Positions 4,907 through 33,193 of a stretch of 64,000 nt of DNA are shown here, piece by piece; within the stretch, counting starts at the first letter, position 1, and each line of letters opens with the position of its first letter. This DNA is from Micromonospora sp. NBC_01796 (GTDB lineage: Bacteria; Actinomycetota; Actinomycetes; Mycobacteriales; Micromonosporaceae): assembly GCF_035917455.1 (NCBI RefSeq), contig NZ_CP109078.1:6618001-6682000 (forward strand), given 5' to 3'. The position numbers and the translations under genes were made by a program. The notes under the pieces were generated by a model. That model did no database searches. It was not told where the DNA came from and was given only the letters and a program-made list of their open reading frames with translations.

Positions 4907-5114
4907 GGCAGACTTCGCAGGTCGGCCGATCGTGCGGTCAGCATGTCGTCTGCGACTCGCCGTGATCCGCCGAGTGACGCCGAGTTCATGGGTGCCCCAT
5001 CAACTCGCGTTTGATGTAGGCGATAGTTGGGGAAATACCCGAATCGTCCGTTTGGTGATAGTCGTTGGGATAGCTTCGGGATTGTCTTATCTCGGCAGCA
5101 CTTCGGGAGCCACG

Positions 5115-6137
5115 ATGTCGCATCACCTTGACACCCCGCACGCCGCCCAGACGGGCCAGCTCTACCTTGACGACCTGTTCGTCTTTCCCGGCGAACGTGG
5201 CACCGTGCTGGTGCTGGACGTGAACAGCTCGGTCACGAACGTGGACCTCCAGCCGGGCTTCCACCACGAGGGCCGGTACGAGTTCAAGATCCACATCAAC
5301 GGCTCGGTGATGGAGGAGTTGACCTACCGGGTCGCCTTCGGCGAGTTCGACGGTCAGGGGCAGGACCTCACCGTGTCCGTGCTCACCGGTGCGGATTCCC
5401 GTGAGGACGGGGCGATGGGTGCGGTGCTTGCTCAGGGCCGTACCGGTGAAGAGGTGACCGGGCAGGGCCTGCGGGCGTGGGCCGGGAGGATCACCGACCC
5501 CTTCTACGTCGACCTGGACCTGCTCGCCACCGTCAACGGTGCGGTGGCGAAGGGCACGAAGCTGGACCGGTCGGCCTGGAAACCGGAGCAGGCGAAGAAC
5601 ACCTTCGCCGGCACCACCGTCGACTCGATCGTGCTGGAGTTGGTCGACGACGAGTTCTTCTCCGACGGCGCGACCATCGGTGTGTGGGCCGCGTCCAAGC
5701 TCGCCACCGACGCCGGCGGCTGGCGTCAGATCAACCGCGCGGGCCACCCGATGATGTGGCCGATCTTCTGGCCCACCGACACCGACTTCTCCAACCCGGC
5801 CAACACCCGTCACCCGTGCGAAGACCTGGCGCAGGACGGCGCCGCGATCGCCGGCGCGGTCGCCGGTGCCGTCGCCGCCACAGGTACCTCCCAGGACCCG
5901 GAGGCGTACGGCTGGAGCGTGGCGCGCCGGGTCTATCCGGATGTGCTGTCCTACGAGGTGGGCACTCCGGCGAACTTCGGCTTTGCGAAGATCAATGGTC
6001 GGACGCTGGCCGACAACGCCCCCGAGGTGATGATGTCGCTGGTGGTCAACACGGCAATCAACTCCGGCCTCACCCCGGACACCACCAAGGACGCCCGCAC
6101 CGACGTCTTCCCCTACGTGGTCCCTGTCGCGCGCTGA
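5115..6137 (+). CDS. DUF4331 family protein
   Basis: Product of 340 residues. It begins MSHHLDTPHAAQTGQLYLDD, the hallmark of DUF4331 proteins, whose N-terminal SSHREAP-like motif is followed by a predicted beta-rich fold. FGFAKINGR and the TPDTTKDARTDVFPYV end also fit this family. Most relatives are secreted; no clear signal peptide follows from the ATG at 5115, and the 95 in-frame codons upstream look non-coding. The family has no assigned reaction. It is monocistronic and convergent with the LacI regulator. Confidence 0.8.
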   Translation: MSHHLDTPHAAQTGQLYLDDLFVFPGERGTVLVLDVNSSVTNVDLQPGFHHEGRYEFKIHINGSVMEELTYRVAFGEFDGQGQDLTVSVLTGADSREDGAMGAVLAQGRTGEEVTGQGLRAWAGRITDPFYVDLDLLATVNGAVAKGTKLDRSAWKPEQAKNTFAGTTVDSIVLELVDDEFFSDGATIGVWAASKLATDAGGWRQINRAGHPMMWPIFWPTDTDFSNPANTRHPCEDLAQDGAAIAGAVAGAVAATGTSQDPEAYGWSVARRVYPDVLSYEVGTPANFGFAKINGRTLADNAPEVMMSLVVNTAINSGLTPDTTKDARTDVFPYVVPVAR

Positions 6138-29707: not shown

Positions 29708-30262
29708 GTGGAGATTCGCTTCGACTTCGGTGACGAGCATGGTCGGGTGTTGGTGGACGTCGTGCCGAACACCGACCCGGTGGCCGTCGGCAAGACCGAG
29801 CGGGAGTTCGGGATGCCGGTGTGTACGGCGTCCGTGGAGTTCAGTGCGCGCGGTTACCGGTCGCTGCTGGGCTGGGTGCAACTGGTACGTGAGCCCGGCC
29901 CGTCGGACCCGTTCGGGATCGATCCGTTCGACCTGTTCGAGGACTCCAGCGCACCTTTTGCCTGGTACGGGTTCCAACCGGCGCTGTTCGACGCTCCTTC
30001 CCACTGGCGCCCCGGTGCGGTGCGGTGGGAAGCGCACAGCTTCCTGACCATCGGTCCCTGGGACGTCGACCCGACGCTCGTGGTTCCCCTGGTCGGGTTC
30101 GCCTGGGGCTACGGCTATGACCAGGATCCGGAGGACCAACCGCACCTGTCCCCGGTGCGCCTGCTCGGACCGGCGGACTGGGACGGCCATCGTCCCTACC
30201 TGGCCGACAGGTACCCGACCTGGAAGTTCGACGACGGGAGCCCGCTCGCCGACCAACGGTGA
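29708..30262 (+). CDS. Hypothetical beta-rich protein
   Basis: Product of 184 residues beginning VEIRFDFGDEHGRVLVDVV. It is rich in Trp, Tyr and Phe (SARGYRSLLGWVQLVRE; HWRPGAVRWEAHSFLTI; GFAWGYGYDQDPEDQPHL). No known domain recognised; a beta-sandwich is likely from residue pattern. The GTG at 29708 is favoured because the 14 codons upstream look non-coding. It is divergent from the YCII gene and ends 26 bp before the left inverted repeat of the insertion-sequence remnant. Confidence 0.6.
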   Translation: MEIRFDFGDEHGRVLVDVVPNTDPVAVGKTEREFGMPVCTASVEFSARGYRSLLGWVQLVREPGPSDPFGIDPFDLFEDSSAPFAWYGFQPALFDAPSHWRPGAVRWEAHSFLTIGPWDVDPTLVVPLVGFAWGYGYDQDPEDQPHLSPVRLLGPADWDGHRPYLADRYPTWKFDDGSPLADQR

Positions 30263-30288
30263 CGACCGTTCCGACGGGCGGATTGTGA

Positions 30289-30315
30289 CTAGTGCCCCGT
30301 CTTTGAACGTTGATC
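30289..30315 (+). repeat. Left 27-bp terminal inverted repeat of the IS630-like remnant
   Basis: The sequence CTAGTGCCCCGTCTTTGAAC continues to 30315 and is the exact reverse complement of 31496-31522. The outermost CTAG fits the TA-target preference of the IS630/mariner group. Confidence 0.85.
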
Positions 30316-30327
30316 CACCCCCCTAGT

Positions 30328-30343
30328 GACAACACCCGTTGTC
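30328..30343. repeat. Palindrome GACAAC-N4-GTTGTC, copy 1
   Basis: GACAAC ACCC GTTGTC, inside the left end of the IS remnant. The same six-base arms recur at 30362, 30475 and 31248. Confidence 0.6.
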
Positions 30344-30361
30344 GACACTCGGCCTGACGCC

Positions 30362-30377
30362 GACAACAGATGTTGTC
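30362..30377. repeat. Palindrome GACAAC-N4-GTTGTC, copy 2
   Basis: GACAAC AGAT GTTGTC, 34 bp after the first copy. Both lie upstream of the ABM gene and could be operator or REP-like elements. Confidence 0.6.
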
Positions 30378-30420
30378 AACCCCTGTCCGGTAGTCGCGTT
30401 TCGTCGTCGCGTCGTCGTGC

Positions 30421-30495
30421 CGTTTCCGCACCACCGCCGCAGGTCCGAATCGTCTCGCCCGCCACCACCACAGTGACAACAGCGTTGTCAAGCAG
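30421..30495 (+). repeat. Direct repeat A of a pair bracketing the ABM gene
   Basis: About 75 bp starting CGTTTCCGCACCACCG that aligns with 31194-31268, with roughly four bases in five identical by eye. It ends in a GACAAC-AGC-GTTGTC palindrome (30475-30489). Differences fall partly at codon third positions if the minus strand is read (WRARRxGPA), which hints at coding ancestry or a dispersed repeat family. Confidence 0.6.
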
Positions 30496-30771
30496 TGGGC
30501 CTACCGCGCACGGCTGATGCTGTCCCCGCACGACGGAAACGGCGTTTGAGGAGCATCCGTGTCAGATCGTGCGCTAAGTTTTTCGTTGGGCTGCTTGGTG
30601 CTTTGACCTGGGGCGATTGAGCGTCGGAGCCTTCGTGGGTCGTTGTCAGTTGGTAACCTTCTCCGCACAAGGTGCAGGCCGGAGCTGGCGAAGCAGGAAT
30701 CGCGGGCCGTGGCGCGTGGTCATCGTGCCAACGGCACGGCCCTGACCGTCTCGTTAAGCAGGAGTGTTTTG

Positions 30772-31080
30772 ATGCCGACCGTCGCGTTTCTTGCCCGATT
30801 CAAGGTTAAGCCAGGGAAGGCAGCGGACCTGATCGCCGGTTTCCGACCTGCGATCGAGCAGGCGGAGCAGGAACCGGGCACGCTGTTCTACGCTCTGCAC
30901 CGGTCCAAGGACGATTCCGAGCTGTTCTGGATCTCCGAGCTCTACGCAGACGACTCTGCCTTCGCCGTTCACCACGGGAGCGCTGTGATGGCCGCAGTCA
31001 GGCCGGTGATAGCGGAGCTCGTCGCCGAGTCGGAACAGGTCTTCGGCGCGGCTGTGTATGGGAAGGGCGTACCGGCCTGA
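30772..31080 (+). CDS. Antibiotic biosynthesis monooxygenase (ABM) domain protein
   Basis: Product of 102 residues, a single ABM fold. It begins MPTVAFLARFKVKPGKAADL, the family's first strand and loop, and contains QEPGTLFYALHRS and FWISELYADDSAFAVHHGS, the core strand-helix pattern with the conserved His pair. Relatives include quinol monooxygenases such as YgiN and heme-degrading enzymes; the reaction here is unknown. An AGGAG lies eight bases upstream of ATG 30772. It sits inside the inverted repeats of the IS remnant and between two direct repeats, so it may be transposed cargo. Confidence 0.85.
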   Translation: MPTVAFLARFKVKPGKAADLIAGFRPAIEQAEQEPGTLFYALHRSKDDSELFWISELYADDSAFAVHHGSAVMAAVRPVIAELVAESEQVFGAAVYGKGVPA

Positions 31081-31193
31081 CTGTCCGCGTCCCGCGGGAC
31101 CATGCCTTCCCTCTCGCCGAACGTTCTCCGAATCGCAGGTGAGGAACATGGTCGAGTGAGATAGCCCGGGGCAGCACGTTGCCATCCGGCGGC

Positions 31194-31268
31194 CGTTTCC
31201 GCGCCACCGGCGCGGGTCCGGGTCGCCTTGCTCGCCACTGCCACGGCGACAACATGCGTTGTCGAGCG
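31194..31268 (+). repeat. Direct repeat B of a pair bracketing the ABM gene
   Basis: Matches 30421-30495 in the same orientation. It contains GACAAC-ATGC-GTTGTC at 31248-31263. It lies between the ABM stop (31080) and the transposase fragment, close to where the transposase is cut off. Confidence 0.6.
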
Positions 31269-31288
31269 TCATGGTTCAACGCGCTCGG

Positions 31289-31420
31289 TTGGGCGGACAT
31301 CAGCACCATGATCGCCCGCCGCAGCTTCACCGGGTCCTTCGCGGTCCGGGTGATCCGCTGCAACCGCTGACCCTCGACCATCGACACCTGCCGGACGAAC
31401 ACCTCCGGGCGTCTACCCAC
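31289..31420 (-). pseudogene. IS630-family transposase, N-terminal fragment
   Basis: A GTG at 31420 starts GRRPEVFVRQVSMVEGQRLQ, continuing through TRTAKDPVKLRRAIMVLMSAQ. This matches the conserved N-terminus of IS630-family transposases, the helix-turn-helix region, from memory of the family. Similarity ends abruptly at about 31289, and no catalytic domain follows. The fragment reads inward from the right inverted repeat, as normal for the family. Confidence 0.7.
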
Positions 31421-31495
31421 CGGCCACCACCTCCCACAGCGTCCTACGTTGGGAGACAGCCGGCCCGACGCCCCCTCAGAACCGACGGATTACAC

Positions 31496-31522
31496 GATCA
31501 ACGTTCAAAGACGGGGCACTAG
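31496..31522 (-). repeat. Right 27-bp terminal inverted repeat of the IS630-like remnant
   Basis: Exact reverse complement of 30289-30315, ending in CTAG. The bases outside the pair do not match further, so 27 bp is the full extent. Confidence 0.85.
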
Positions 31523-31527
31523 CTCGG

Positions 31528-31809
31528 TCATCGGGGCCGGCGTACCCGTACCCAGCCGAGGAAACGGTGGTGGATGGCGTCCGGCTCGACGGCCAGCTCC
31601 ACCGCCGGATTGACGGCGGTGAGGTCCGCGAGGGCGTGCACGAACTGTGCACCGAGGTAGAGGTACAGCTCGACCTGCCGGTCCCGGAAACCGTGTGTCA
31701 GGTCGAGTTTGGCGTCCGCGCAGGGCCACGGTTGGGCGTCGGTCCGGCAGATCCAGAATGGTCGCAGGGGAGTGTGCATCGCCAACTCCGGCGGGTCAGG
31801 CATGACCAT
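31528..31809 (-). CDS. Small hypothetical protein of the XRE-linked type
   Basis: Product of 93 residues with CRTDAQPWPCADAKLDL, a Cys-Pro-Trp-Pro-Cys pattern, and RFLGWVRVRR at the C-terminus. Similar short proteins beside XRE/DUF397 loci are common in actinomycetes (from memory); none has a proven role. It overlaps the gene upstream: the stop of that gene lies inside ATGGTCATGCC, so two ATGs (31809, 31803) are possible starts. It ends five bases from the right end of the IS remnant. Confidence 0.65.
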   Translation of the reverse strand: MVMPDPPELAMHTPLRPFWICRTDAQPWPCADAKLDLTHGFRDRQVELYLYLGAQFVHALADLTAVNPAVELAVEPDAIHHRFLGWVRVRRPR

Positions 31810-32392: not shown

Positions 32393-33193
32393 ATGGCGGA
32401 CGTACCGGGTCCACTGGCCGAATTCATCGTTGGGGAGATCCGCCGGGCGAGGACCGCGTCCGGCCAGACACAGGAGTCGTTCGGCAAGGCCGCTGGTTTC
32501 AGCGCGTCACACGTCAGCTCGGTCGAGAACGGCACCCGAGCACTGACCATGGACTTCGTCCGTGGCGCCGATCGCGCGTCGAACACCGGCGGCCTGTACG
32601 AGCGGCTCGTGCTCAAGTTCGGCGCCCCGTCGTGGTTCCAGCCGTGGCGGGACGCCGAACAGTCGGCCGACCAACTCCGGGCTTTCCAGCCGAACCTGAT
32701 TCCCGGCCTGCTCCAGACCGAGGACTACGCCCGCGCGGTGTTGCGTCTAGACACGACGATGAGCGAAGCGGAGGTAGAACAGGCCGTGGCGACCCGGATG
32801 GAGCGGCAGGCGATCCTGGACCGGGACGACCCGCCGCACCTCGTGGCCGTGCTCGACGAGGTTGCGCTGCACCGCTTCGCCGAGGGCTGCGACAAGATGC
32901 TCGCGGCCCAACTCGTGCACCTGCTGGAGATGGCGCAGCGACCACGGGTCAGCGTGCACGTCATCCCGGCCGGCGTCGGCCTACATGTCGGGCTGAGCGG
33001 CCCGTTCGTCCTGGTACACAGGTCGGAGGGCGGCTGGGTCGGGTACATGGAGAATCAGCTCGGCGGCACGGTCGTGCATCGGGCCGAGCAGGTGGCCAGC
33101 CTGCTGACAAGGTGGGAGAGCGTCCGGAACGAGGCTCTGCCGACGCGTCAGTCTCTCGATCTGATCAAGGAAGTGGTGAAGCCATGGATCTGA
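32393..33193 (+). CDS. XRE-family regulator with DUF5753 domain
   Basis: Product of 266 residues. The helix-turn-helix lies at about residues 8-60 (IRRARTASGQTQESFGKAAG, then SHVSSVENGTRAL). The DUF5753 domain follows (about 75-265), with the signature AFQPNLIPGLLQTEDYARAVL. It overlaps the DUF397 gene by ten bases, the classic actinobacterial XRE-DUF397 pair. Such pairs regulate development or secondary metabolism in some streptomycetes; targets here are not known. Confidence 0.9.
   Translation: MADVPGPLAEFIVGEIRRARTASGQTQESFGKAAGFSASHVSSVENGTRALTMDFVRGADRASNTGGLYERLVLKFGAPSWFQPWRDAEQSADQLRAFQPNLIPGLLQTEDYARAVLRLDTTMSEAEVEQAVATRMERQAILDRDDPPHLVAVLDEVALHRFAEGCDKMLAAQLVHLLEMAQRPRVSVHVIPAGVGLHVGLSGPFVLVHRSEGGWVGYMENQLGGTVVHRAEQVASLLTRWESVRNEALPTRQSLDLIKEVVKPWI

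Follow-up and report, generated by a model that had tools for sequence, protein, structure and literature searches.

How did an intact gene for an ABM-domain protein come to lie between two perfectly matching insertion sequence (IS) ends, and did the gene and its borders ever move together? The question arises from a 64,000-nucleotide stretch of the genome of Micromonospora sp. NBC_01796 (hereafter the window), in which an initial annotation had noticed perfect 27-bp inverted repeats within CTAG. This observation was confirmed. The two arms are 100% complementary, each consisting of C, TA and 24 bp, and they bound an element at 30289-31522 (Table 1). At ≤3 mismatches, the 27-bp motif is found at two places in the window, both of them the arms of the element (shuffle mean, 0.00). 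Outside the ends, the sequence reads C-TA on the left and TA-G on the right, the pattern expected for a CTAG target. As a tentative first choice, which we hold short of probable, the element is read as a non-autonomous member of the IS630 family, of the mobile insertion cassette type, that would have come in as one unit and since become stranded.

Table 1. Positions of the features of the element within the window.
Feature	Position	Strand	Remark
Left end	30289-30315	+	C+TA+24 bp, same as the transposase-5' end of the IS, inverted; without GTAATC at 30-35
TA, left copy, putative target duplication	30290-30291	.	sequence
Palindrome GACAAC-N4-GTTGTC no. 1	30328-30343	.	
Palindrome GACAAC-N4-GTTGTC no. 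2	30362-30377	.	
63-nt direct repeat, copy 1	30419-30481	+	81% to copy 2
Palindrome GACAAC-N3-GTTGTC no. 3	30475-30489	.	
Tn3-family transposon end	30541-30646	+	38-bp IR and tnpA leader; tnpA absent
ABM-domain protein gene	30772-31080	+	102 aa, intact, AGGAG ahead
63-nt direct repeat, copy 2	31192-31254	+	
Palindrome GACAAC-N4-GTTGTC no. 4	31248-31263	.	
First 44 codons of IS630-family transposase	31289-31420	-	DNA homology ends at 31290
Right end	31496-31522	-	usual transposase-5' end of the IS (24 bp)+TA+G; GTAATC box adjoins
TA, right copy, putative target duplication	31520-31521	.	sequence

The right part of the element belongs to an IS of the IS630 family. The homology covers element positions 1002-1234 (window 31290-31522; 233 bp), comprising the inverted repeat, the leader and about the first 44 codons of the transposase, and breaks off abruptly at 31290. 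These 233 bp share 91% identity with two copies in the relative G038, both full-length with an open transposase frame, and the closest copy found, a partial one in G284 with an identical 27-bp end, reaches 94.9%. The protein of a full-length relative is an IS630 transposase (NCBIfam NF033545, E 4.7e-63; Pfam DDE_3 plus HTH); the 43-aa fragment by itself had no Pfam match, and the element, holding only about 44 codons, encodes no complete IS630-type DDE transposase. The initial attribution of the repeats and the truncated transposase gene to IS630 is therefore upheld, as the repeats, far from being unrelated to any IS630 end, match the 5' ends of IS630 relatives, and full IS630 copies with such ends are present in relatives, including the two in G038. 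The closest G284 copy breaks off at IS position 246, and the ORF behind it resembles another transposase by eye; G284 also shows two partial IS copies on one strand, 2.3 kb apart (L121:2353-2894 and 4936-5181).

The two natural ends of this IS can be told apart. All 12 distinct full-length relatives listed (identical pairs merged; only copies of 1100-1260 bp fitting two patterns kept) carry one 5'-type and one 3'-type end, and they measure 1195-1205 bp, CTA and TAG included. The first 13 bases are common to both ends, with position 9 differing in 3 of the 12 copies listed, after which the ends diverge into a TTTGAAC-like sequence at the transposase start and A(T/C)GC(A/G)GCC at the other end. 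Further inward, GTAATC occupies positions 30-35 in 45 of 62 5'-type and 13 of 13 3'-type ends of relatives, and C precedes TA in 58 of the 62 5'-type ends (loci of the element itself excluded, identical 91-base strings merged, ≤5 substitutions per end). The inverted repeat of the IS is thus split, agreeing at positions 1-13 and in the GTAATC box and differing between them (for example, in L079, L091 and L108).

The window element has no such pair. Both its ends are of the transposase-start (5') type and identical over 27 bases; the 3' end of the IS is absent, and a second 5'-type end occupies its place. The initial annotation mentions neither the 5' type of the left end nor the Tn3-family end and the four perfect palindromes of the interior (Table 1). 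As both ends are of this one type, the element is not an IS with merely its middle deleted. Its initial description as an internally rearranged IS therefore holds as far as IS derivation and truncation are concerned, but is incomplete, since the 3' end is replaced by a second 5'-type end and the interior is a foreign mosaic. The two ends also share a C at position 9, a variant found in 8 of the 62 5'-type ends of relatives, and they part at positions 30-35, where the right end has GTAATC and the left end CCCCCC. The contrast between the mixed ends of relatives and the doubled 5' type of the window favors arrival as a unit, as does the existence of deleted IS derivatives, exemplified by a 199-bp MITE-like copy in G300 (IS 1-174 plus 1176-1205) that keeps both normal ends. 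This copy lies at L123:2801-2999; an end in G345 (L122:1596-1632) is preceded by the same 20 bp and probably marks the same site of insertion, although what remains of the element there differs and is decayed.

A doubled 5' end might also have arisen on the spot, if a single normal IS had exchanged its body and 3' end for foreign DNA and a second 5'-type end through recombination with another copy or aberrant repair, never transposing in its present form. Such a rearrangement accounts for the single copy, the one target site and the intact neighbors, and the abrupt end of IS homology at 31290 agrees with it. However, the inverted 5'-type end would have to be gained exactly at the outer TA, and no intermediate was recognized among the IS copies and ends of relatives examined; we consider this course of events unlikely.

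The missing GTAATC box weighs against arrival as a unit, our preferred reading. Both sides show TA next to an IS630-type terminal sequence, but the inner box is missing from the left end, and the element accordingly lacks the two complete ends of a mobile insertion cassette. Because GTAATC stands in register in both natural end types but not in the left end, the chance of movement as a unit is lowered, and the cassette is probably stranded, perhaps having been non-functional from the outset. Without the box, the need for which is itself putative, the left end may not work. ISY100, a relative in the IS630/Tc1 group, moves with 30 bp at each end and probably requires no more than 24 bp (PMC2170065), which favors the preferred reading. 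The end sequence shared in the window spans 24 bp inside the TA, comparable to the 24-bp repeats of ISY100, and by analogy 24 bp may be sufficient for the IS630 element here.

The insertion site was examined next to its counterparts in relatives. The flanking frames converge, with intact stops at 30260-30262 (left) and 31528-31530 (right), and the cassette lies 27 nt and 6 nt from these stops, respectively. In G033, the left gene has its stop at the corresponding position, and the right frame resembles a frame of G002 to near its end, the latter being four residues longer. When the cassette is removed together with one TA, the spacer between the stops measures 35 nt and contains a single CTAG. 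This is consistent with one insertion and, with the C-TA and TA-G borders and the intact frames, supports arrival as a unit. In G001, of the same genus, both flanks are neighbors, homologous up to window position 30071 and from 31769, and neither this ABM gene nor the IS end motif is present, which points in the same direction. Against it, the stretch between the G001 flanks has been replaced by about 560 bp with a SnoaL-like gene (L083:2782-3288), and the empty TA target site that the initial annotation proposed to look for was not found in clean form among G001, G033, G078, G060 and G002. The replacement in G001 takes the ends of both flanking genes, and the spot syntenic with it may be an insertion hot spot. 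A regulator gene (HTH plus DUF5753) is located near the cassette at 32393-33193.

The same borders could have been left by two IS630 insertions in opposite orientation that flanked foreign DNA and were each later truncated, to 27 bp and 233 bp, without the segment ever moving as a unit. TA on both sides is equally expected from two separate insertions, each of which leaves CTAG borders, and the left copy ends before the GTAATC box, as a truncation would. Truncated copies are common: partial copies occur in several relatives, and the genome under study itself contains a lone 43-bp IS 5' end (C1:2358035; L006:4036-4078) and the decayed 3' half of a related IS (C1:5923527-5923761; L137:1004-1260). 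However, both insertions would have had to occur exactly where the foreign DNA begins and ends, at the distances from the neighboring stops given above, and the position-9 C common to both ends also counts against two independent events, although one subfamily could supply both. Two truncated insertions are thus a serious contender, which we regard as possible and place second to arrival as a unit.

The interior contains several parts of other origin. A Tn3-type 38-bp inverted repeat (GG...CTAAG) occupies 30541-30578 with three mismatches to the form in the plasmid locus L036, and homology reaches about 30646; the leader is directed at the ABM gene, whose start is 125 bp on. Among the best 20 of 28 plasmid records, eight, all from Streptomyces, match within element positions 243-358 at 79-92%. 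Of five such regions examined, two contain a gene for a Tn3-family transposase that begins 23 bp past the match, a third contains a fragment of a Tn3 transposase gene at a distance of about 0.5 kb, and two have no transposase listed downstream, the gene table of the collection being incomplete. A second 38-bp Tn3-type end is absent from the whole window at ≤13 substitutions, and the element does not qualify as a Tn3-family TIME.

Around the Tn3-end region lie four perfect GACAAC(N3-4)GTTGTC palindromes, two of which overlap the copies of a 63-nt direct repeat or lie next to them. The N4 form occurs three times in the 8.56-Mb genome, always inside the element, and of 20,000 random sequences matched to the interior in dinucleotide composition, 4 contained one or more N3-4 palindromes, compared with four sites observed. 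At a guess, the palindromes could be operator sites of a donor regulator. The extended form TGACAAC-N4-GTTGTCR was detected in 8 of 291 genomes of the phylum, this one included; G468, with at least nine extended matches and a CCTGGG-like core, is not obviously related and was set aside. Reading the direct repeats as integron attC sites was likewise dropped, by eye, against the attC core.

When the interior (974 bp) was searched against 396 genomes of the phylum, two others matched over 44 and 40 query bases, which were judged to be chance matches; the regions concerned contain no ABM gene or IS by eye. Phages gave no DNA or protein match to the element, and viral contigs contained neither an exact IS end nor an exact match to the two-palindrome pattern. 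Rfam searches of 30200-31600 returned two matches, both far below the gathering score, and promoter and terminator scans found none. The interior is foreign mosaic DNA.

The ABM gene inside is intact, as initially annotated, and its product belongs to PF03992 (E 1.6e-14; score 54.3 bits, cut-off 23.1). A relative at E≤1e-15 was found in 1 of 300 genomes of the family, namely this one, and at E≤1e-12 in 3 of 396 genomes of the phylum including this one, the other two being 39 and 40% identical; the family certainly has weaker ABM genes beneath these limits. Aligned with two distant relatives from the phylum, the protein is 36 and 39% identical. Six plasmid records contain relatives, the best of them at 40-42% in Rhodococcus, phages none, and viral contigs one weak relative (38% over residues 25-85). 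Short-peptide patterns, which detect close relatives only, gave no confirmed ABM relative in a named genome collection that may omit the genome of the window itself. The ABM gene is, on these searches, foreign to the family as sampled, and no near donor was found. Both its restriction to one family genome and the confinement of the N4 palindromes to the element support arrival as a unit.

If the ABM gene were instead an old resident of the locus around which the IS ends came in, its codon-position GC (0.70, 0.44 and 0.78), not far from that of four neighboring frames, would fit. Yet the other 299 family genomes hold no relative at the limit used, the G001 flanks adjoin without the gene, and the N4 palindromes are unique in the genome, leaving long residence very improbable. 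The finding that the initial annotation had named as refuting its own reading was not obtained either: in no relative examined is the gene carried at this place without the repeats.

The initial annotation had further proposed that a trans-acting transposase could enable the element to spread, which is unproven and now appears unlikely. The cassette is single-copy in its own genome, where no intact cognate transposase was found; a transposase search returned three matches, the fragment in the element and two pieces of the decayed 3' half, and the IS subfamily was once present in this genome and has since decayed. The end motif (≤3 mismatches) has 73 matches in 43 of the 300 family genomes, among which the only inward-facing pair within 2 kb is that of the element itself, although many of these genomes are in many contigs and a pair could be missed. 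Together with the left end lacking GTAATC, the single copy and this absence of a second pair count against spread and against arrival as a unit. A facing pair 13.3 kb apart is present in G280. The exact 24-mer occurs in 25 stretches of named genomes (one match per stretch, several stretches from one genome), 23 titled Micromonospora and 2 Salinispora.

Under the preferred reading of a cassette that arrived as a unit, foreign DNA with the ABM gene, the Tn3-family end and the palindromes would have come between two inverted transposase-5' ends of a Micromonosporaceae IS630 element. Acting in trans, the transposase of an intact relative would then have recognized both ends and excised the unit, which would have joined into CTAG in the short spacer of two convergent genes with duplication of TA. 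The tnpA leader of the captured Tn3 end faces the ABM gene and may drive its expression. The most specific form of this reading, a cassette moved on two copies of one 24-bp IS630 5' end (one without the inner box), with the ABM gene behind the captured tnpA leader amid genome-unique operator-like palindromes, as a counterpart of mobile insertion cassettes made by end duplication rather than internal deletion, is rather doubtful. If the element did move as a unit, two copies of one short end are enough for an IS630-type transposase to carry unrelated genes, and this route of gene transfer would escape IS annotation; if it never moved, it is a useful warning against taking a pair of IS ends around a gene as sufficient proof of a cassette.

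Several known systems resemble the element. Mobile insertion cassettes (MICs) have IS-derived ends around a coding sequence, lack a complete transposase and are thought to be activated in trans (PMC3129680, PMC5444012). Likewise, the window element carries an ABM gene between IS630 ends without a full transposase, whereas its mobility is putative. MIC231 of Bacillus cereus belongs to the IS231/IS4 family; the window element differs from it in its IS630 affiliation, in having the IS 5' end on both sides, in its ABM cargo and in its single copy. The IS630-family MITE-like derivative in G300 is also non-autonomous with the same kind of ends, but it has a normal 5'-plus-3' pair and no cargo, in contrast to the two 5'-type ends and foreign cargo here. 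Transporter ISs (tIS) hold passenger genes unrelated to transposition inside IS ends (PMC3129680), which the window element also does; tIS are IS copies plus passenger genes, however, whereas 44 codons are left of the transposase here. Reuse of Tn3-family ends in mosaic mobile DNA is known from TIMEs and mosaic non-autonomous Tn3-derived elements (PMC4133298). A Tn3-family end is similarly reused in the window element, but with one such end only it cannot act as a TIME. At the level of titles, the literature found describes no IS630 cassette of this kind. In summary, the kind of element is already known, and the layout of two identical ends and the ABM cargo are its new points.
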